Origin: Cliona cf. orientalis
Lineage: Eukaryota > Porifera > Demospongiae > Clionaida > Clionaidae
Direction: 5' to 3'
DNA: 64,000 nucleotides
Assembly: GCA_963930775.1 (NCBI GenBank)
Contig: OZ005689.1
Coordinates: forward strand, 7,913,569-7,977,568
Part shown: positions 2,557-40,042 of the stretch, one piece after another
Numbering within the stretch: position 1 is the first letter of the stretch
How the letters are laid out: each line of letters starts with the position of its first letter
Program-made: the position numbers and the translations under genes
Notes under the pieces: generated by a model
The model's input: the letters and a program-made list of their open reading frames with translations, nothing else
What the model was told of the DNA's origin: nothing
The model's database searches: none

Positions 2557-3432
2557 TTTGTAGACTAATGCACTTGATGTGGTTCTTTGAACTGCCTCAA
2601 TTGTTGCACTAAAGTATTCTGGTAATGATGGGATGGGAAGTCCAGCAATGCGACCAGAGCAAATTAGTCCAAAGGGAACTGTGAAAGCTTCATCTGGAAC
2701 AGATCTTGGACCAGTGTCAAAAGATATAAAAGAGTAGATGTGGTTTAGTGATTCAGCTACACCTTTTCTGACAATCAATGCGTTGAGGACCACTTGCACT
2801 GGAGAAGGACCATTTCCTAGGGAAAAATCCCAGTTCTCAGTTGCAAAATAGTAGTCCAAGGTGTAGGAGTTGTTTTCTAGCACAGTGCACGTCTGCCAGC
2901 GATTACACGGAATTCCTCTCACAACCTCCACGCCGAGCCATGTGGCATTGTTGTTGCGTAGTTGGAAGAAGTCACGAACAGTTCCGATGTGTACGGATCC
3001 ATTTGCGTTGTCCAGGAATCCAAATATAGGTGTTTCAGTGAATAAACTACGCGAGGAGGGATCAGCGATCCGGCTAATTTCGCAGGTATCACCATCTGAA
3101 ATCCTAAAAATTTCTCCATCGTCGTAATCAAAAACTCCCACAGTTTTTAAGCCGTACCTAGTTATTTCGAACCTGCCTCTGTTTCCGATCTCATCGAAAT
3201 ATTCCCGAACGTTCGTGGTGCTGTTTTCCTGTCCCAGGTTTGCTTCGATGACTACAGAGAACTGCGCAGGAAGATTGGGCAGCGGGATGGACGGTGGGCC
3301 CGTGTAGTTGGGGTCGCATACTGGTGTGTACTGCCCGAATACCACCCCTATCAAATACACTGTCAGGAGAAAAGTAACGCACAGAGAACGCAGCATAATT
3401 ACCGTAACGGTAGCCGAAACTTGGATAGTCAA
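2557..3432 (-). CDS. secreted LolA-like domain protein, 5' exon
   Basis: This is one large coding exon. It starts with a signal peptide (hydrophobic run from the MLRSLCV start, cleaved near VVFG), then a cysteine-containing beta-rich domain with several N-glycosylation sites. The run FSVVIEA...EYFDEIGNRGRFEI and the later CNRWQTC match my recollection of the metazoan LolA-like secreted proteins. Near the exon end a second similar module starts (LPEYFSATIEA), so the gene should continue. A GTAAGT donor right after 2557 (phase 0) closes the exon. I could not place the following exon between 1 and 2500, so the gene is partial here or runs off the left edge. Function is unknown for the family beyond lipid-binding-like fold inference. 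The first ATG is at 3432; the Met at about 3396 is an alternative start. Confidence 0.65.
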
Positions 3433-5926
3433 GTATCACTGAGTATAGAGTATTGTCCAGCTACCGTGCGAGGGGTGTAGCCTCGAATCCCGTGCACGGG
3501 TGCATGAGAAAGGAGGAATGGGAAAAGAGGAAATGAGAAATTGGAGAAATGAACGGAAAACTCGTACTGTACGGCATATATATGACAGGTTGATATTATT
3601 CATGCATGAGATGTCTAGACTGCACATACAGTGACCTGCAGGTATGCAGAGACGGATTGTACTCGTACTGTATGCATTCATAGTAACATAGCTACTGTAA
3701 CATTACCTAGTAACGGGCATGTCCTCCCCTGACTGACGAACAGATGGACGAAGGATGAATTCATGAGCCGTGAATAAGCTTATGGATATTGCAACTGCAC
3801 ACTACAATATCATGTTTAATTAATATATGTGGCAGCTGTGAGGACGCTTATTATTCTCCAAGGTCACTGTGTGGAGATTGATCTTATGACTTAACTTGAT
3901 TGATTAATTTATGCCTGCTCTTTAGCAGTGTACATGTGGCAAACTGTTTTTGTAAAAATTAGCATCATTATGATGTTAAGGTTTGGACCCCTCCCCCCTC
4001 TTTAATAGTATCATGGCAAAGTCTTAGGTACAGTTAGGCGTGACAAACTAAATTCACAGTTTATCGTCACAAAGATTTCGATTTTGCATGCGGGCGGGCG
4101 GTCATTTTTCATATTTCAAACCAGTAGAGAGTGCTGGATAGCTATGCTCGAACCTCGAAATCGCCGACGCCCCGCCCTCTAATTAACGCGATCGGTGGGT
4201 GGGGCTCAAAGTGCCATATGTTTACTGTATTGAATATGAAATCTGAAAAATTTTGAGAAAATCTGAAAATCCATGCGGGCGGTGACGATAAACAGCGAAT
4301 TCAGTTTGCCCCGCCTTACATGGACTAGTAGACAGTGGCAGATATATATTCCAGCTTAATAAGGACAAAGGATGGTTTACATTTCATGCCATGAGCTTAT
4401 GAGTTCTTCATCCACTTCATGGCTGACCCCCCTAAAGTCATAATGATATTAAATTTCCAAAAGTAGTTTGAAAGTGCTCCTTCAGTATTGCCTGATAGGA
4501 GAACTGATCTCAATTTTTTTATTATTATATAATTACTTTTGGGGGCAGCAATAATATTATGATCATTACGACAAAACAAAGTGTCGTGGTCTGGGTGATA
4601 GCTCAGTAATGTAACTTTCATTATTCTGGGATTGTAGTTAAGGCCACACAAAGTAAATTCATGGATCATTAATTTTCAGGCCCACCCACATTGGTAATAG
4701 CCATAATAATTATAATAATACTATAATTATTTGACGTTATCGTAGCTTTGTACTGCAGATTGTATATTATGCAATCTTTGGGGCTCAGGACACTAGATTT
4801 CACTTTAAGGCACACATGCATAGCTCTTGTTTTGTGTGACTGGACCATGCAGTAATGATCGACACATTTCCTGAAATGTTGCTTAAGTGGCTTTTTGACA
4901 ACACTAATGTCTTTAGTTTAGTATTTTCTTCAGAGTATGCATGATGGTGTTGGTATGGATGCCCTGCCCTCTGCATGCTAGATTACCTAAGAATCCATCT
5001 TGTTTGTGTGGCCCTAAACAAGGACAAACATAAGCACATAGTGGATTTATGTTCCCCAACTGTATAGACGGCACAACTATTATTTTCCATCATTTCCCAT
5101 AATTATTGTATTAGCATTTTCTCAATAAATAATTTTGGGAATGGTCAAAGATATTTCAAATTTCCAAACAGTGATGATGTGTATAGTAGCATGATTGTTA
5201 TGTTACAAAACCCTAAATTAAGGCTGCAGATGGATACATGTACATGCATATACTAAGATAGACCTGCAGTTTACAATTCATACGAATTTTTAAAGTATAC
5301 GGAGGTCAAGAAACAAATTATATACTGATTTCATTGATTTCTTCTTTCTCACACAAAATTATGGCCTTACGAGGTAGTTTTTCTTGAGCTAACGTATTGT
5401 ATGCGCATTCACGGGCAGAACACCACCCTAGACCACCCTAGAACCATTGGCATTGGAGACAGCATGAGCCTTTAAGTTAATGACTACAAACAGAAAATTG
5501 GTATTGCCAATAATATACAACAATATAAGTGGGTAATTAGCAACCACAAATATTAATTTTGGTATCTGCAATACCAAGTACCAACAAAAAAAATGTAGAT
5601 ATAAATACCTACAACGGACTTTGACCATGCATGAGCTCGTATATAACAGAAGACACAATGTCATAAAAATTATGCATGGCAGACTTGTGCGGCAATACAA
5701 GGCAGGGATGTTATCACAACCCTACAGCATCTTTCTTTAATGTGTAAATATTTATCATGTCCTATTTTTTTGGTTGCTCTGCTTCAAAGATACAAAACAG
5801 TGGGTAGTGAGGGTAGTGGGTTAGGGTTAGGAATTCACATCACTGACACTGTACTAGGAGACAATAATAATTACATAGTATGTCCAAGAAGTACCATCAA
5901 GCCATTAAATTTTGCTCAGCAACTGT
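3433..5926. other. intergenic region with one MITE
   Basis: Apart from the Harbinger-like MITE at 4037-4315 I see only AT-rich non-coding sequence. It separates the LolA-like exon from the 3' end of the glypican gene. Both genes are on the minus strand. Confidence 0.5.
4037..4315. mobile_element. PIF/Harbinger-like MITE, TTA target duplication
   Basis: A 279-bp element flanked by TTA on both sides (4034-4036 and 4316-4318). The ends form imperfect inverted repeats of about 37 bp starting GGCGTGACAAACT on the left and GGCGGGGCAAACT on the right (reverse complement), and share TTTATCGTCAC. No coding capacity. A TWA duplication with a GG start is typical of PIF/Harbinger MITEs. Confidence 0.75.
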
Positions 5927-25489: not shown

Positions 25490-26688
25490 ATGATGTCTTG
25501 TGAGCCAAAGAGAACATCAGCTTATTCAAATGACCTTAGATGGCGTATGGTGTACATGGTGGAAATGCAACATAAACCTTGTCGTGAGGTGGCTGAAAAT
25601 CTAGCAGTTGATCCATCTACTGTGTCTAGAACAGTCAGTCTTTTCAATGAGTCTGGGAATGTTAACAAAAGGAAGCACCCACCAAATAAAGGCACTGCTG
25701 TATTAACTGAAATAGATAAGCTGATTATCATGGAGACCGTGTTAGAAAAGCCAGAGGTGTACATGCGTGAGATCAGGGACACACTCATTAGTGAGACAGG
25801 CACAGAAGTAGATATCAGTACCATCTGGAAATTTCTACAAATCTCAAATACCGTATAGCTGGAAATTTTCGAGGGAGAAAACTTTCACGGATCGGTAGGA
25901 AAGGAGCATTTCGCGGAGAAAACTTTCGCGGAACGTTAAAACTGGTCGCATAATGGGTGTGGCATGCCTAGAATTTCGTGGAGAAAACTTTCGCGGATGG
26001 CTGAAAAATCACGAAATTCGTGAAAGTTTTCTCCCTCGAAAATTTCCCGCTATACGGTATCACTAGACAAAAAATGGTCCTGGTTGCAAAACAAAGGAGT
26101 GATTATCTCAGGGCTGCGTATGCTCAAGACATGCAAATATTCAATGGCCATCCTGAAATGCTGATATTTATCGATGAAACGGGAAAGGATAGGAGGAATT
26201 GTATGAGAAGATTTGGTTACAGTGTGCGTGGTAAGCCTCCTGTATCTAAGAAACTCCTGGTACGGGGTCAGAGAGTGTCAGCCATAGCAGCTATGTCTAC
26301 CAATGGGATCATTGATTGCCACACTGTATCTTCCTCTGTTAATGGTGACGAATTTATATACTTTTTGCAGCATGTCCTAGTTCCACACCTCCAACCATTT
26401 AATGGAGTAAATCCTCACAGTGTAGTTGTGATGGATAACGCCTCAATCCATCATGTGGATAGGGCTGTGCAACTTATTGAGGCTACTGGAGCACTAGTTC
26501 AATTCCTCCCACCTTATAGCCCCGACCTCAATCCAATTGAGGAAGCTTTTTCTAAGCTTAAATCAACATTACAAGCCAATGAACAATTATTGGACATTAT
26601 TGATTGTGAATCACTTGTACTGTGCGCATTTACAGCAATTACACAAAATGACTGTAGACATTGGATAGAACACGCTGGATATTTTTAA
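25490..26688 (+). pseudogene. Tc1/mariner DD34E transposase split by a MITE
   Basis: The N-terminal part (25490-25848) has a helix-turn-helix (CREVAENLAVDPSTVSRTV). The C-terminal part (from 26060) carries the catalytic triad: IDETG, MDNASIHH and NPIEE, with 34 residues between the second D and the E. The reading frame stops at a MITE inserted at a TA. Removing the insert plus one TA (209 bp) leaves 990 nt, a continuous 329-codon frame plus stop, so the gene was intact before that insertion. In its present form no full-length transposase is predicted unless the insert is spliced out, for which I see no evidence. Confidence 0.85.
25851..26057. mobile_element. 207-bp MITE in transposase, TA target duplication
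   Basis: Ends CCGTATAGCTGGAAATTTTC and the complementary GAAAATTTCCCGCTATACGG, with inverted repeats of more than 40 bp including GAGGGAGAAAACTTTC. TA lies on both sides (25849-25850, 26058-26059). Internal GGAGAAAACTTTCGCGGA blocks repeat. Confidence 0.9.
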
Positions 26689-26824: not shown

Positions 26825-29800
26825 TCATTTAATCTCCTTGAGGGTACGCAATATTTTTTCCTTTTGCTCCAAAAATTCTGTCTCGCTGAGCACAGCTTCC
26901 TGATATAATTCATTAAGTGATTTTAGATCCTCCAAACAGCTCCTGCGTAGTTTAGCGGAACTCATTGGCGAAAATGAGTTAGAACCAGGCTGTTTTACGT
27001 CGCTGGAACGTTTGCTAGGTGAGCCAGTAGGTTGTGGAGGCTGAACGGCATATGCATTAGCAAAAATGGTAGCAGCATTTACCAGTGCATCTCCTATATT
27101 ATTAGTTTTTTTCTTAGCAGGAGTTGGAGAACCAGTAATGAGTGGAATTGCAGGAGGATTGTCATAATCATCATGGCGACCTTTATCAATCATCTTTGCC
27201 CATAGCCTAAGCTTGGGGTTTGCCATGTCGGGATGTTTACTCTTTAGCTCCTTAAGGTACCATTTAATTGCGTGGGCGTGAGCGTCAGGAATGGCTAATT
27301 CAATTAGCGAATCGTGAAGGGGCGTGGCCGAAGAGGCCATACGAGTGCTTTTGGTCGAAGGTGGGCATGTCCAGAATCGGCCAGGGATGATTATGCGCGT
27401 GTAATTAGCGACCGGAAGTGGCCCCTGAAGAAAAGGCCGGTAATTGCCCACATCAAAGCAAGATCAAAGCATTCTTGCTTAACTATTAACCGCAACGACT
27501 TAAATTAAAACACTAAGTAGAAAAAAAAAAGATTTTAAATAATTAATTCAGGGGAGAACTGGGAACACTTGGGGACATAATTTTTGCACCGGCGCGCAGA
27601 ATGGATCGAATGCAGAGATTTGACCTTTACGAATTTTGATTCACACCTTAGAATTAAAGTTACGGCCCTTTGAAGTTTCCCCATATGTTTGTACAGGGAA
27701 GCCATGCGTTTGCAATGTTTCCGCCCACGCGCACATAAACGTGACGACCTTTACCAACTTTTTGACAAAATTGAAATTTAGGCTGCCTGCTTGCATTGTA
27801 TGGTTCCACTATGCACCCAGCTCGATTATATGGTGGTTTTTGGACAATTTTTTTTTTCTGCTTAGTGTTCAGGTCACCTTGTTAAACACTAAGTAGAAAT
27901 TACACACTAAGTAGAAAAAAAAAAAATATGAAAATTCATGGGGGGTTTGGGAGCACTTGGGGAGATAATTTTTACATGGGCACGCAGAATGGGTTTTGAG
28001 TCCCGGTGTGCGTTATTTAGAAAATCGCTAGTCCAGTACATGCATAGGCTACCATGGAGCTGGTATTGTATCCAGAGACTTGCTGAATGGATGAGGAAGC
28101 AGTCACAACAGTAACTCTCCCGTTTTTGCTGAGAGGTAGGTGGGGTAGTACAGCTATAGTTTTACATTTTGTATGTGTGGATCAGTGTGTGGGAAAATAC
28201 ATCTAATTGAGCTCTAGAAACATAACTAACTAAAATTGTTTTGTGCTTCTCCCCTAGCCTTGTGTGTGTGCTGTGGTGATCTTGAGTACTAGTACAAAGT
28301 AACGTGTTACAGTGGCCACAGGTACTGAACCTCTTCCCCTAGCCTTGTGTGTGTGCTGTGGTGATCTTGAGTACTAGTAGGAAGTAACGTATTGCAGCGG
28401 CCACTGGTATACTGAACCTCTCAACACTGATCATATACTCTGTGTTTTCTAGGCTCTATTAGGAGCATAGATGGCCTTGTTTCCGATTGTATGGGTATCC
28501 AGCTCAACTATGTGGTGGTTTCTGGACAATTTTTTTACAGTAATACTCGGGATGACTATAATAATATTACTATACTGTAGCGTGTGAATATTATATACAT
28601 GCATGTTTCTAATTATGTGGAACTTTTTGTGCTTAGTGTGCATGGTAGCTCCTTAGATGATTTCCAGCAAGCTCTAACTGCGCCTGCAGCGCAGTTAGAG
28701 TGGGTGGAAATCACCTGAGGTACTTGGTATTGTTACTATGGTATAACAATGCTAAATCGTACAGGCACTGTACATTGATTAAATTATTGTGGGCTAGGGT
28801 AGCTGTTTTGAACATGACTTGACTATTTCCGGGATGCTCTACTCTACTGAAGAATGGTTTTAGTGACATTAGATGTTGTTACCATAGTAATACAGTGGAA
28901 CCCCTCTATAACGGCCACCATTGGGGAATGAGGTAGTGGCCTTTATAGAGGGGTGGCCTTAACTCAGGGGTTTTTTCCATAAATTGATAAAACAACAACA
29001 CAACTTGAATTATGCAATAAAATATTAAGTAGGATTAAAATATTCTTTAAGTGTGCTCTGCCTAGCAGAGTTAAGGCTTGTACAGTGAAGGAAGGTTAGC
29101 CTATTGTAAACTGTACTGACTGATGATTAATAAAAAAAAGTAGGTGGAGCTGGCCGTAGTATGAGATCATGCGCACTAATGATCGTTAAAGTGGGTAGAG
29201 CTGGCCGGTGACGACCTTTACCTTGGCTAAAGTGGGTGGAGCTGGCCGTAGTGCAAGGTCAATACGTATTGGTGAGCATCATTTGGGGCCACAATACGTG
29301 GCCGTTGTACGGAGTAGAGGGGTGGCCGCCAACCAGGGGTTTCTTAAGTACTATCTTATATGGAGATGCAATCGGGACCAAGGTGAGTGGCCGTTATAGA
29401 CAGGGCGGCCGCCCATCAGGGGTGGCCGTTAAGAGGGGTTCCACTGTATATACCAAATGTACATAAAGTATTGCAGTGTATATATGTGCATGGTAAACAA
29501 TCAATGTAAAGTAAGCTTAAGTGCATATTAATTTGTGCGAACCTATATACAATGCAGGTACGTATACTTATGTGCCGCAGTTTTTTTTTTTTCTGCTTAG
29601 TGTGCATGGTAGCTTGAAAAAAAAGAATTTAAATAATTAAATAAATAATCTAATTCATGGGGGGTTTGGGAGTACTTGGGGACATAATTTTTACATGGGC
29701 ACGCAGAATGGATCGAAACTAGAGATTTGACCTGAAAGAATTTTGATTCACGCCTTTGAATTGAAGTTACGGCCCTTTGAAGTTTTCCCATATGTTTGTA

Positions 29801-31908
29801 TAGGGAAGCCATGCGTTTGCTATGTTTTCCGCCCACGCGCTACGTGAAAAACGGGGAACCCCCGTTAGGCGCGCGCACACAAACGTGACGACCTTTACCT
29901 ACTTTGGTCAAAATTGGAGTATAGGGTGCCTGCTTGCATTGTATGGCTCTACTAAGCATCCAGCTCAACTATGTGGTGGTTTTGGACAATTTTTTTTTTC
30001 TGCTTAGTGTTCTGGTCTCCTTGAAAAAAAAAAAAAAAAAAAAAAAGGCTAATTAGGCCTAATTAAGCATGTGGGCGTGTTCCTGGCACTGTGTGGAGTG
30101 TGTGCATGTGCGTTAATGCAGGTTTCATTGCTTCCGATTGGGCGTGGCTTCACAGGCCAGTGCTTGGACATCGGGGCCGGGGACTTGGCTGCGGCGATAG
30201 GTGGGCGTGTCCCGGATGCGGTAGTGACCTTTGAACCCGTCCAGGAGGCTTTGGGGGCGTGGCAGGAGGTCAAAGGTGAGGCCATGTCTGTTAATGAGGC
30301 ACTGTACGGCGGTGCGATCGAGGGGCCTGTACGGCTGGACGGAAGCTGACGATGGTTTGAAGCGGATGTGGTTGCGATGACGTGTTGTTACTCCGCCCAC
30401 ACAGGAAATGAGGTGAGCTCTTGCGTGGGCGGTGTGGCAGAACGGCCTCCAAGTGTTTGTGTGTGTTTTGGCCTTGAGGAAGCTGTGTGTTTTAATTGGG
30501 ATTGATTGTGGGCTTCCGGTGGACATCCGGTGGTTAGTTAGTCTCGTGCCCAGACCCCACCCTCGAGGAGGAAAAGGGTCTGGTGACTTTGGGCAAAAAG
30601 CTTGGTCCAGTTGACGACCCGCGGAGGAATTTGCGCGTCCCAATCAGATCGCAGCTTTAGCCCAGTCATATGACTCGCTAGCCGCAGGAATGTAGCAGGG
30701 CCATTGCCCGCTATATAAATTTGAATCGCCTACGCAGCCTTACTGGCCAATCAGATCCGAGCTTTATTCAAGCGCACCCGTATAGGCGCGCGCGACCAGA
30801 GCCGGCCAAACCAAGAAAACTGCCCGAAGTCACCAGACCCTTTTCCCTCCTTTTGAGGGTGGGGTCTGGGGACGAACTAGTGGTTAGTAGGCACTTGATT
30901 GAGAATGGTGGTCCTTGGGGAACAGGGTGGGGCTGTTTTGGGCGTGGCCTGGCCCCTCCCTTCCGGCTCGGCTTCCGGTCCATGGAGGATGTTAAATGAA
31001 CACTTCCGGCTCTAGCAGCCACACCCCTGAGACCTGTGCAATTAAAAGGGCGTGGTTACACAACATGCACCTCACTAATGACTTTGATGTGGTTTAGGTG
31101 TCATATCCCCCACCTCACGCCCACGCAATTTAATGGTACCTTAAATATGATATCCACATTGTCTAGCTCTAAAGAGGCGCCAGCAGACGCTGTAGCACTA
31201 TCAGTTTTCCTTTTCTTCTGGGGGGGCTCATTGCTAGGTTGCATTTGGAGAGTATCACACCACAGGGTAATTTTTGATGACATTGGAAATGTTTTGTACA
31301 TAACTTGCAGATCCTGGTCTTCAAATATCCATCGTTTTACATTCCCCTCTAAGGTAAATGAACCAGTTATGAAACAGTGAGTTCTAAACTGACTTTTAGG
31401 AGGAACTAGATCTAATTAGCTCTTTGTTTCATAACTGGTACATGTTTCATAACTGGTTCACTTCCCTTATATAGCCCATTTGAAAATCATCGGTATGAGG
31501 AATATCTTGTGGGAATGATTCCTGTAGTTTAGATCTGAGTGATGTAGCACTCTGAAACAGTTGTGATGTACCATGCCACATTCGTACTACAAAATCACTT
31601 TTTTTCTTGGGATTTATTATTTTTACATGATACGTGTACGCACCACTAGTCGCAGCATTTGGTGTGGGTTGTTGATGACTCAGAGTTGAACCAGCTCTCC
31701 TGCCTAGCCCTGACTCCTCTGACTGGGGAAATTGTACTCGAGGGAGCGTACCTGTGGGAGCCTGCTGTGTTATGTTGAATGCCATGGGGTTGTTGTGAAT
31801 GAAACGATGATCCTGGTAGTAATGCCAGTTTTGTGCTGGGTTAGCACCAGGAGCCCCAGCATATTCAAACGGAGATGGCCCAAGAATATTGTGCTGAGTT
31901 GGCTCCAT
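26825..31908 (-). CDS. transposon accessory protein, nuclear, SHOCT-like C-terminus
   Basis: Three exons in phase 0: 31908-31462, 31346-31140 and 27250-26825 (1080 nt, 359 aa). Exon 1 ends and exon 2 begins a beta-rich, ubiquitin/PB1-like segment (YHVKIINPKKKSDFVVRMW, MGYIREGNVKRWIFEDQDL, TLWCD). Exon 2 has a nuclear signal (PPQKKRKTD). Exon 3 has HPDMANPKLRLWAKMI, GRHDDYDNPP and a SHOCT-like end (LNELYQEAVLSETEFLEQKE). It lies inside the Tc1-like inverted repeats, convergent to the transposase, so it is best read as a second element-encoded protein, perhaps for DNA binding or regulation (inference). The second intron is a whole TTAA-type transposon. If not spliced, the protein would end early. 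Confidence 0.65.
27511..27867. mobile_element. CACTAAG-ended MITE, copy 1
   Basis: Ends CACTAAGTAGAAAAAA and TTTTTTCTGCTTAGTG. Internal blocks (ACGGCCCTTTGAAGTTT, GCGTTTGCxATGTTT) recur in the copy near 29.62-30.01 kb. No coding sequence. Confidence 0.6.
27905..28638. mobile_element. CACTAAG-ended MITE, copy 2 with insert
   Basis: Starts CACTAAGTAGAAAAAAA and ends at GTGCTTAGTG. Shares the GGGGGGTTTGGGAGCACTTG block with the other copies. It includes an 85-bp tandem duplication (28251-28335 and 28336-28420). Confidence 0.5.
28893..29446. mobile_element. Tc1/mariner-like MITE, TA duplication
   Basis: 554 bp between TA dinucleotides. Inverted ends start CAGTGGAACCCCTCTxxAAC. The interior repeats a GTGGCCGTT/GGGTGGAGCTGGCCG theme and has no conserved ORF. 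Confidence 0.8.
29590..30013. mobile_element. CACTAAG-family repeat, copies 3 and 4
   Basis: CTGCTTAGTG ends occur near 29590-29603 and 30000-30009. The interior (GGGGGGTTTGGGAGTACTTG, ACGGCCCTTTGAAGTTTT) matches copies 1 and 2. A run of about 23 A follows at 30025. Confidence 0.55.
30537..30888. mobile_element. MITE of the TCGTCCCCAGACC family
   Basis: Inverted ends of about 50 bp: TAGTCTCGTGCCCAGACCCC...GGTCTGGTGAC on the left and the complement ending GGGTCTGGGGACGAACTA on the right. About 350 bp, GC-rich, no gene. Confidence 0.72.
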
Positions 31909-32439: not shown

Positions 32440-33099
32440 ATGGGAAATAAAGAATCTAATCCGGTTCAGACTTCGCAGCGCGGAGATCAAACCACGTCTT
32501 CCCCCTCGGAAGAGCATGCACACCATCCTGCGTGGCAACGCCGTATGGAGGAGCTGTTTATCAGGCTGGACCGCGATAAGGATGGATTTGTGTCGATGAA
32601 CGATTTCATGACACAGATTGACAAATTTGAGAACGACCACGCGCCTACGTCGAGCGATGGCGACGTGTCCCCAGAGACAGTGATCCAGAACCTTCGTTCT
32701 TGCATGCAGGAGATTTGCATCGCTATGGGGCTCACTCCCGGGAAGAAAGTCACCAAATACGAGTTTATTCGAGATATCCTTGTTTATGCCCCTCGTGAAA
32801 TAGAGAAGAAGGAAAAGGGAGAGGACGCATTGATCGATAAGTTGAATAATGCCTGGTATGACGCCGTGGACACCACCCATGACGGGCACGTAACACTGGA
32901 AGAGTGGAGGATAGTCACGAACGCTTGGCAACTTGACCGTAGTGTTGCCGACAAAACATTCAGTACAATTGACCATGAAAACAAGGGGAAGATCTCAAGG
33001 AAGGAGCTCAACGAAAAGCTCTTTATGTTCTGGTTTGCTCGTGAGGATGAACACAGCAAACAACACTTTGGAGAGAAGGGGATGTTTGGAGAGAATTGA
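32440..33099 (+). CDS. calexcitin/SCP-like EF-hand protein, copy 1
   Basis: A 219-aa single-exon frame. EF-hand 1 is DRDKDGFVSMND, a middle pair is degenerate, EF-hand 3 is DTTHDGHVTLEE, and EF-hand 4 (DHENKGKISRKE) lacks the acidic residue at position 5. The C-terminus FWFAREDEHSKQHFGEKGMF fits the calexcitin / sarcoplasmic Ca-binding family. The start MGNKES is a good N-myristoylation signal, so membrane targeting is likely for this copy only. It is probably a cytosolic Ca2+ buffer or sensor. It lies just right of the Tc1-like element and is the first of three near-identical copies. Confidence 0.8.
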   Translation: MGNKESNPVQTSQRGDQTTSSPSEEHAHHPAWQRRMEELFIRLDRDKDGFVSMNDFMTQIDKFENDHAPTSSDGDVSPETVIQNLRSCMQEICIAMGLTPGKKVTKYEFIRDILVYAPREIEKKEKGEDALIDKLNNAWYDAVDTTHDGHVTLEEWRIVTNAWQLDRSVADKTFSTIDHENKGKISRKELNEKLFMFWFAREDEHSKQHFGEKGMFGEN

Positions 33100-34214: not shown

Positions 34215-36120
34215 CATACAAAGAGCACACGTGACACTCCCTGCAGCATTGGTAACACTGTCAGGATCTACCATCACCAGGTCTCAGACTCTGGTTTAAA
34301 TCTATTATTATTTGCCAGCATATCCACCCAACCCTAGTGTATGTGCAGGAAAAATCACGTATAGCCATGGAGTTAATATCTGTACTCATGCAGCTATATA
34401 TATATACCTTGGGAATGGTGTAGCTAACTTACTCAGTGCAGTTATCTTGTAGCTACACCATTAGGGTAGATATTTTTTTTTCTTATTTGCTCTTCTCGAA
34501 TTCTCAAAAAATTACCTATAGCTACATGTAGCTAGCTAATTCCCAAGAAATGTTCCTATTATTTCATGGGTGGCAGAAGTGGTGTGGCATTTGCCACCCC
34601 ATGGCAGTATTCTTAATGCATAGCCTATAGCTACTCTTCTTATAAATTAAGCTAATGGAGTCAAAGGTGAGTACAAATCCATACGCAGTATTTACTATAA
34701 TACATAAGTACAATGTCATTTAAGTGCACACATTAAAATTTCCAACAATGATGTTGAGGACTAACTCCTGTTTTTTTTTTGTTTTTTTTTTTTTTTAGCT
34801 ATAACTGCTAATTTAGGTACTGGGCAACCATAGCTATCATGCAGTGCTGTGCCCGTAATTCCCGAGTGCACGCATGTGCAATTCATAGCTAACCACGGTC
34901 TTCAGTCACAAGAGAAATTGGGTCTGGTGACCTTATATTATGCTAATATTATTGTAAAGGGTTCCGTTATTATACTAAATAAATGTCATGTATGCTCATT
35001 GTTCTGAACAATATATGCCAATTAACTACACCCTATTATGCATGTCCACACATGAAAGGTGGCCATGGTATCACAAAGACTGTTAGCATAAATTTATAGT
35101 GATATATTATTAGCTATTTTGCATTGACCTCTGCACAACAAACCACAAATATATTCCTGGCATGCAGGGATGGATGCTTAGTAAAAGTAAGGGGCTCAGG
35201 CTTCAGAAGTAAATTCCAATGGTAAATCATTCAGGGCTGAATCCAATGTGGGTGTCTGATGTGGTCATATACTACCTTAAGGACATTTTTGTTTGCGGGT
35301 ACTAAAGTTAGTGAAATTTAGCTAGTGATTTACCCAATTTTCGCTAAAATTGTACCCGCAAATAGCTTTTATTTTAATATTTTCGAATAAATAGAATGCG
35401 GCTAATTTTGAAAAATCGCTAAAATGAGTACCCGCTAAACACACTATTTCCGAAATCCGCTAAAATTTGTACCCACAAATAATCGTAGCCCTAAGGTAGG
35501 ATAAGAGCCAGATTCACGACAGTAATTTCAGGCCTGGACTACCACCATGATCTTCATATGAGTACCTAGCTAGCCACGTCCACTAACCACCCAGGGTGAT
35601 AGAAAAGGTGTATATGGGCACAACCCTTGGGCCAGGGCCTGGTGAGCAGATCACAGCCTGATCAGTAGTGAGCCCGGCGAAGCGGCTGGCAAGTTGAAGT
35701 CACTGATGTGAAATTACCAGCAACTTGGAAGGATCACATATTAAAATTATCCACTAGCATTTTGACAATAACCAGAATACAGGTTTGTTCCACTACCGAC
35801 GACCCTGACGACCCGTACTACATAATTCCACATATAATACCTGAAGCAAAAGAAAGTCTAGTCATGCATTCTAATTAGAGCGCGTTCATATACGTCAATA
35901 CGCTGAGTCGGCAACTATTATGACGCGCAATGATTAAATGCGCATTCCACAAAAATAATAAAATTAATTATTCATTATTATAGTATAAGTTTGATTAGTC
36001 TCGTTCCCAGTCCCCAATCTGCAAGCGATCTGGGGACGAGACTTTTCCCTCCTCGAGGGACTTCTAGTGCCATATCGTGCACGTGAAAGAAGCGCTACAG
36101 GCGGCCAGGAGCTCAAGGAG

Positions 36121-36765
36121 ATGGACCCACTTCAGACTTCACAGCGCGGAGATCAAACCACGTCTTCCCCCTCGGAAGAGCATGCACACCATCCTGCGTG
36201 GCAACGCCGTATGGAGGAGCTGTTTATCAGGCTGGACCGCGATAAGGATGGATTTGTGTCGATGAACGATTTCATGGCACAGATTGACAAATTTGAGAAC
36301 GACCACGCGCCTACGTCGAGCGATGGCGACATGTCCCCAGAGACAGTGATCCAGAACCTTCGTTCTTGCATGCAGGAGATTTGCATCGCTATGGGGCTCA
36401 CTCCCGGGAAGAAAGTCACCAAATACGAGTTTATTCGAGATATTCTTGTTTATGCCCCTCGTGAAATAGAGAAGAAGGAAAAGGGAGAGGACGCATTGAT
36501 CGATAAGTTGAATAATGCCTGGTATGACGCCGTGGACACCACCCATGACGGGCACGTAACACTGGAAGAGTGGAGGATAGTCACGAATGCTTGGCAACTT
36601 GACCGCAGTGTTGCCGATAGTACCTTCAGTACAATTGACCATGAAAACAAGGGGAAGATCTCAAGGAAGGAGCTCAACGAAAAGCTCTTTATGTTCTGGT
36701 TTGCTCGTGAGGATGAACACAGCAAACAACACTTTGGAGAGAAGGGGATGTTTGGAGAGAATTGA
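36121..36765 (+). CDS. calexcitin/SCP-like EF-hand protein, copy 2
   Basis: A 214-aa frame from ATG at 36121. The body is nearly identical to copy 1, but the N-terminus is MDPLQTS, so the myristoylation signal is missing. An upstream in-frame ATG at 36067 would add 18 residues. Private changes against both other copies include V to M in the DGDMSPE segment and K to S in VADSTFS. Same EF-hands as copy 1. Confidence 0.78.
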   Translation: MDPLQTSQRGDQTTSSPSEEHAHHPAWQRRMEELFIRLDRDKDGFVSMNDFMAQIDKFENDHAPTSSDGDMSPETVIQNLRSCMQEICIAMGLTPGKKVTKYEFIRDILVYAPREIEKKEKGEDALIDKLNNAWYDAVDTTHDGHVTLEEWRIVTNAWQLDRSVADSTFSTIDHENKGKISRKELNEKLFMFWFAREDEHSKQHFGEKGMFGEN

Positions 36766-39397: not shown

Positions 39398-40042
39398 ATG
39401 GACCCACTTCAGACTTCACAGCGCGGAGATCAAACCACGTCTTCCCCCTCGGAAGAGCATGCACACCATCCTGCGTGGCAACGCCGTATGGAGGAGCTGT
39501 TTATCAGGCTGGACCGCGATAAGGATGGATTTGTGTCGATGAACGATTTCATGGCACAGATTGACAAATTTGAGAACGACCACGCGCCTACGTCGAGCGA
39601 TGGCGACGTGTCCCCAGAGACAGTGATCCAGAACCTTCGTTCTTGCATGCAGGAGATTTGCATCGCTATGGGGCTCACTCCCGGGAAGAAAGTCACCAAA
39701 TACGAGTTTATTCGAGATATCCTTGTTTATGCCCCTCGTGAAATAGAGAAGAAGGAAAAGGGAGAGGACGCATTGATCGATAAGTTGAATAATGCCTGGT
39801 ATGACGCCGTGGACACCACCCATGACGGGCACGTAACACTGGAAGAGTGGAGGATAGTCACGAACGCTTGGCAACTTGACCGTAGTGTTGCCGACAAAAC
39901 ATTCAGTACAATTGACCATGAAAACAAGGGGAAGATCTCAAGGAAGGAGCTCAACGAAAAGCTCTTTATGTTCTGGTTTGCTCGTGAGGATGAACACAGC
40001 AAACAACACTTTGGAGAGAAGGGGATGTTTGGAGAGAATTGA
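39398..40042 (+). CDS. calexcitin/SCP-like EF-hand protein, copy 3
   Basis: A 214-aa frame, start MDPLQTS as in copy 2. From about 39606 onward its coding bases match copy 1 at the sites that distinguish copies 1 and 2 (GACGTG, GATATCC, GACAAAACA). The first part and both flanks match copy 2. Same EF-hands, no myristoylation signal. Confidence 0.8.
   Translation: MDPLQTSQRGDQTTSSPSEEHAHHPAWQRRMEELFIRLDRDKDGFVSMNDFMAQIDKFENDHAPTSSDGDVSPETVIQNLRSCMQEICIAMGLTPGKKVTKYEFIRDILVYAPREIEKKEKGEDALIDKLNNAWYDAVDTTHDGHVTLEEWRIVTNAWQLDRSVADKTFSTIDHENKGKISRKELNEKLFMFWFAREDEHSKQHFGEKGMFGEN

Follow-up and report, generated by a model that had tools for sequence, protein, structure and literature searches.

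A TTAA-flanked element with seamless GT...AG junctions in the sponge Cliona cf. orientalis is probably an ordinary transposon insertion

The Element and the Open Reading Frame That It Interrupts

The stretch of DNA analysed here, called the window below, comprises 64,000 nucleotides of the genome of the sponge Cliona cf. orientalis (assembly GCA_963930775.1, contig OZ005689.1, positions 7,913,569 to 7,977,568), and bare position numbers refer to it. On its minus strand an open reading frame (ORF) that lies beside a transposase gene, the accessory ORF, is interrupted by a DNA transposon that has terminal inverted repeats (TIRs) starting with GGTACC and is flanked by TTAA target-site duplications (TSDs). 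The original prediction, made from the sequence of the window, was that this transposon acts as a seamless intron, in the manner of introners. The observation behind it was confirmed, and of the interpretation the splice-site geometry held, while the action as an intron found no support and the piggyBac-type terminal motif did not fit. The element is most probably an ordinary young TTAA miniature inverted-repeat transposable element (MITE) nested in a dead Tc1/IS630-like transposon, with the seamless GT...AG being incidental. The features concerned are as follows (a slash marks a splice boundary).

27256..31140, no strand assigned: TTAA-flanked non-autonomous DNA transposon, 3,885 bp
27252..27255, no strand assigned: TTAA target-site duplication, left copy; the proposed acceptor consists of this TTAA and, on the minus strand, the host G at 27251
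31141..31144, no strand assigned: TTAA target-site duplication, right copy
27256..27282, plus strand: left terminal inverted repeat GGTACCATTTAATTGCGTGGGCGTGAG, one of the inverted-repeat pair
31114..31140, minus strand: right terminal inverted repeat, holding the proposed donor AAG/GTACCA, with GT from 31139
31470..31908, minus strand: accessory ORF, 5' part, ATG at 31908
31145..31349, minus strand: accessory ORF, middle part (predicted exon 2), in frame with the 3' part
26825..27251, minus strand: accessory ORF, 3' part (predicted exon 3), interrupted by the TTAA element

The predicted element of about 3.9 kb, bounded by GGTACC inverted repeats, flanked by duplicated TTAA and lodged in a minus-strand ORF, thus exists at 27256-31140; its end had been placed too far out, at 31346, given that 31145-31349 is host ORF and 31352-31467 a separate TA-flanked insert. 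Its near-perfect inverted ends have the consensus GGTACCATTxAATTGCGTGGGCGTGAG, and the match, TTAA counted, runs over 31 nt with 97% complementarity. Compared by BLAST with the majority sequence of the family's 1.0-kb form, the window copy matches in three blocks (1-282 at 95.8%, 2765-3283 at 97.1% and 3625-3885 at 99.6%), separated by ~2.5 kb and 0.34 kb of non-matching sequence, and it would have been enlarged by other repeats. The sole element ORF given to Pfam (26825-27451, with 196 nt inside the element) was without match.

Empty Sites in Paralogs and the Host Transposon

When the host ORF was searched by halves in the genome, three other copies were found, namely L045 (C1:32.457 Mb), 97-98% identical to the window host ORF, L046 (C10:4.319 Mb), 89-92% identical in the two long pieces, and L047 (C12:4.78 Mb), 91-98% identical and in pieces. 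The insertion point is crossed gap-free in all three (in L047 according to alignment table row 824-991), and the printed alignments of L045 and L046 have a single TTAA followed by G at the empty site; the element was therefore inserted by TTAA duplication. An unfilled counterpart was thus present in 3/3 paralogs, and the segments taken for exons 2 and 3 do form one frame once the element is removed. The segment called exon 2, by contrast, is no known exon: the L045 ORF is open from the ATG past both insertion points, save for one frame change at a long poly-C tract, and has no intron at the insertion point. In L046 both inserts are absent and several stops are present. Two further features belong to the host copy.

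31352..31467, no strand assigned: 116-bp MITE-like insert with TA on both sides, within the accessory ORF; not in L045, L046 or L047
25388..26688, plus strand: host-transposon transposase (HTH/PAX-like and DDE_3), broken by an insert near 25850-26057

Because a DDE_3/HTH transposase adjoins the accessory ORF in the window and in all three paralogs, the host is, judging by its sequence, a Tc1/IS630-like transposon with an accessory ORF. Relative to L045 the window copy has received three inserts: the TTAA element, the 116-bp insert, which recurs in at least 36 other genomic places at 89-99% identity, and ~208 bp at 25850-26057, by which stop codons are introduced into the DDE_3 transposase. The L045 transposase itself has frame changes. 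The window host thus looks like a nested, broken transposon rather than a maintained gene. On the preferred reading, an older Tc1/IS630-like copy that bears further inserts received the TTAA element at a TTAA of its accessory ORF, and the open frame across the joined flanks would be the ordinary trace of any recent insertion.

The ~208-bp insert has inverted ends CCGTATAGC...GCTATACGG with TA at the junction, and GT and AG are also present close to the junctions of the 116-bp insert. Three plus-strand ORFs with EF-hand matches lie near the host transposon (32440-33099, 36067-36765 and 39398-40042).

A Young, High-Copy Family

In the genome as searched (216.79 Mb, 149 contigs), 2,857 TIR ends with at most two mismatches were counted against 0 for a reversed control pattern, so the family is not a product of chance. 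Exact ends with TTAA number 2,201, and the family is estimated at ~1,100 to 1,400 copies, assuming two ends each. A sample of 30 complete copies was studied, which includes the window copy and is not random: L050-L064 were taken from the start of the C1 listing, provided that both ends were listed; L048 was included on account of a piggyBac ORF, and a TTAAG end was the reason for choosing L065-L084. Dropped from it were 14 array entries (L002-L008), and no end pair bounding one copy was obtained for L068, L071, L077, L078, L079, L081 and L084.

The commonest length among the sampled copies is ~1.0 or 1.4 kb, and TTAA is found on both sides in 30/30 (the search pattern itself contained TTAA). 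Divergence from the majority sequence was taken from 21 aligned copies of 950-1,100 bp, of which two belong to the same tandem array; it is 0.2-1.8% in 18 and 4.0% in L075, with L051 and L064, which are misoriented, yielding no value. With most values at or below 1.8%, the family is, by this measure, young. It shows the TIRs, the fixed TSD and the many near-identical short copies without transposase that are expected of a MITE, and we would describe it as a young, high-copy, non-autonomous TTAA element, mostly of ~1.0-1.4 kb, with Kolobok-like RR...YY ends.

Head-to-tail tandem arrays with a period of ~1,010-1,070 bp occur at C2:5203662-5220074, C2:3989097-3992320 and C1:14361817-14363968, and in the first of these adjacent copies have one TTAA in common. 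At C1:3107847-3114028 two facing family ends ~6.2 kb apart mark a candidate long or autonomous copy; none of the listed PF13843 or PF20700 matches (see below) lies inside it.

Seamless Junctions and the Strength of the Splice Sites

The minus-strand junctions read AAG/GTACCA on the left and CCTTAAG/GAG on the right, and they bound a hypothetical intron of 3,889 nt at 31139-27251 (GTACCA...CCTTAAG, phase 0). As had been predicted, excision of GT...AG would give back the empty-site bases in phase 0, and the geometry, in which the donor lies in the TIR and the acceptor is made of the duplicated TTAA and a host G, is real. It is valid in either orientation at any TTAAG target because both ends read GGTACC, and the seamless GT...AG may accordingly be seen as an arithmetic property of such ends at such a target.

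On the introner-like interpretation, which the exact geometry and phase of the window copy favour, splicing would remove precisely the stretch that begins with the GT at TIR position 2 and ends with the AG arising where the duplicated TTAA meets the host G, and exonic TTAAG insertions would be silent in either orientation. The strength of the sites argues against this. Scored with generic animal matrices, in which branch points and exon definition are ignored, the proposed window donor reaches 3.9 bits (rank 26/226 among the GT of a 4.6-kb stretch) and the acceptor 1.9 bits (rank 115/254 among its AG), and a second copy, L067, has 3.94 and 3.2 bits against 10.1 and 4.8 bits in its next apparent native intron, read by eye. 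In addition, published introner families have median lengths of 30-654 nt, far below the length of the window copy.

The proposed pair is also outscored by minus-strand sites within the element, namely the donor GAG/GTGGGG at 31113 (7.3 bits) and the acceptor TTCTTCAG at 27426 (9.5 bits). Splicing through these would exonise element sequence and alter the host ORF; their scores are subject to the same limits of the generic matrices, and we regard this outcome as unlikely.

Copies in Coding ORFs

For the 30 complete copies, ORFs spanning the junction of the joined flanks were compared with those at 206 other TTAA sites in the same flanks. At least 70 aa was reached by 14/30 copies vs 85/206 control sites, and at least 100 aa by 7/30 vs 43/206. 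For 3/30 copies (window, L067 and L073) a position in an ORF with uninterrupted close paralogs is shown, and all three host ORFs are multi-copy, which is a further point against introner-like splicing.

The seamless rule fits one of the two other in-ORF copies. L067 sits at a sense TTAAG in a RecQ-like helicase ORF that is otherwise open and has both halves intact (DEAD at E 1.2e-19, Helicase_C downstream), and the paralogs of this ORF at C1:13.027 and 19.623 Mb (94%) are uninterrupted; its predicted seamless junction is C1:6,281,417^6,282,440 on the plus strand, and it speaks for the introner-like interpretation. L073 speaks against it, as the insertion is at a sense TTAAC and the rule gives no seamless product; its host ORF has 17 homologs, an uninterrupted 94% paralog at C1:30.914 Mb and no Pfam match. 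The sense:antisense ratio of TTAAG-bearing in-ORF sites, 2:1 with P = 0.5 in this small, non-random sample, lends that interpretation no support either. The exon of the RecQ-like helicase has 156 genome matches (exon pieces, some of more distant helicases) scattered over the chromosomes, and is possibly that of a transposon helicase.

Pfam was given 15 of the 16 junction-spanning ORFs of at least 70 aa (the window being excluded and the antisense L073 ORF left out). DEAD and ResIII were above the cut-off in L067, four sub-threshold Ig matches were obtained for L065 and Med14 at E 0.07, below the cut-off, for L080 (minus strand); the others had none. L065 was considered as an in-ORF copy and rejected, and is taken as intronic because an apparent Ig-exon acceptor follows its insertion after ~17 nt.

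None of the four splicing tests appears favourable beyond the geometry. The claim that the element acts as an intron is opposed by weak sites with stronger internal ones, by a multiply interrupted host, by the misfit of L073 and by ORFs near the control level. The seamless splice sites are probably not in efficient use, and we infer that productive splicing is absent; introner-like splicing seems to us quite unlikely.

Superfamily: Kolobok or piggyBac

The description of the element as piggyBac-type holds for the TTAA duplication and fails for the terminal motif, which is CC[C/T]T in piggyBac (excerpts of PMC2872659) and was not found in this family, with its GGTACC ends; GG...CC ends suit Kolobok better. 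Kolobok is defined, in excerpts of PMC9587614, by TTAA duplication and 5'-RR and YY-3' termini. Both are present here: the 44 paired entries examined, arrays included, have GG...CC ends (one end is GGTAGC in 16), TTAA stands on both sides throughout the complete copies, and these traits point to an affiliation with Kolobok. Kolobok elements have been reported from sponges in sources seen in extract. With the Kolobok MITEs, such as the Xenopus T2-MITE, the family has in common TTAA duplications, RR...YY ends, non-autonomy and high copy number; unlike them it ends in GGTACC rather than AG/AGG, and no Kolobok transposase was linked to it here. PF20700 (Mutator/Kolobok-type), which we take to be a Kolobok-like family, has 55 matches in the genome, and by eye none is near the family ends listed.

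PF13843 (piggyBac) has 122 matches, and those listed lie mostly in C1:17-37 Mb, the second half of the outsized 37.5-Mb C1 (other chromosomes measure 7-15 Mb). TIR pairs were present in 3/12 of the piggyBac loci examined (two being larger refetches of two others), and all start with CCCTTTAGGGCC. The TTAA MITEs of corals (CMITEs) resemble the sponge family in their duplications and form tandem arrays too (excerpts of PMC2872659).

Observations That Weigh Against an Ordinary MITE

Several observations stand against the preferred reading of an ordinary Kolobok-like MITE in a dead transposon. A splice simulation in which the TA-flanked MITE was also removed as an intron left a 359-aa open frame with one acceptor; the neighbouring acceptor led to a stop at 152 aa, and the longer frame is within chance. 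Junction-spanning ORFs of at least 150 aa are twofold over the control (3/30 vs 10/206, three copies only), and two of the three in-ORF copies, those of the window and L067, are in frame at a sense TTAAG. Genome-wide, TTAAG is found at 573/2201 ends (26%) vs 118/748 background TTAA (background 14.6-15.8%), and at 527/2155 (24.5%) if all 46 ends at 23 head-to-head junctions were among them and are counted out. The Kolobok label is based solely on termini and target, and a family end lies ~1.35 kb downstream of each of two PF13843 ORFs (C2:5760427-5761503 and C2:8525616-8526632).

The TTAAG bias was considered as proof of splicing and rejected: the excess of ~200 ends is too large for exonic survival and can hardly be exonic, because coding ORFs are shown to hold 3/30 sampled copies. 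Insertion-site preference together with tandem arrays is the simpler explanation.

As for the PF13843 ORFs, the spacer at the first locus (L085, C2:5761400-5762870) matches the MITE over its outer ~339 bp only, and a CCCTTTCGG...CCGAAAGGG unit, each end beside TTAA, lies between the piggyBac ORF and the family end; no second GGTACC end was found in this spacer. L085 would most simply be a piggyBac or piggyBac MITE inside a family copy, although it may be a composite moving as one unit, and piggyBac as the source of the family is ambiguous. C2:5760427-5762847 and C2:8524256-8526632 have the same order and a near-equal spacing of ~1.35 kb, as in a duplicated nested composite or a mobile unit.

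These ORFs also bear on an explanation at the DNA level, in which the transposase excises the element precisely, a single TTAA is restored and the gene recovers without splicing. piggyBac leaves TTAA without a footprint (excerpts of PMC7351741), single-TTAA paralogous sites exist, and a piggyBac ORF is near a family end at two places. Against this, the paralogs are separate loci that most simply escaped insertion, the termini do not resemble those of piggyBac, no transposase was linked to the family here, and footprints are reported for KolobokP excisions (excerpts of PMC9587614). We consider precise excision highly improbable here.

Relation to Published Introners and Significance

The introner survey used for comparison is presumably that of Gozashti et al. 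2022. It covers 175 genomes and, in excerpts, describes introners that bring their own 5' splice site and have the 3' one supplied by a 4-bp TSD, besides other families with TIRs and TSDs (PMC9860276). This precedent favours introner-like splicing, and because an element donor with a 4-bp TSD acceptor has already been published, the mechanism of the original prediction is known in kind; splicing of the Cliona element, if proven, would add one more instance. The closest parallel is with the introners of Chrysochromulina, in which the 5' site lies in the element and the 3' site is co-opted from a 4-bp TSD; unlike the present elements, these are annotated introns and, according to the legend, without TIRs (excerpts of PMC9860276). 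The Cliona family differs further in its long elements and multi-copy hosts and in having no clear gene enrichment, the comparison being made here from genome sequence alone. In the literature searched, no introners with TTAA and piggyBac were found, and for introners in sponges none of the papers from 2022 on was on point, judged by listing. A 2025 paper reportedly deals with horizontally transmitted introners. For Cliona, RNA-seq of specimen odCliOrie1 is public (run ERR13669944; PMC12639293), and the genome has an Ensembl annotation.

The boldest reading of the family, as an animal TTAA MITE that is an orientation-independent introner, with its donor in the palindromic GGTACC and its acceptor in the TTAAG found at about a quarter of ends, so that some of the roughly one thousand insertions of the burst can go unnoticed in coding exons, strikes us as distinctly improbable. 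Were the element spliced, this would be a case from an animal in which a cut-and-paste transposon that has a four-base target brings one half of an intron and takes over the other; the burst would be recent, and filled sites could be set against empty ones in paralogs. As things are, the case illustrates how readily an intron that convinces on paper arises from a TTAA element with GGT ends.

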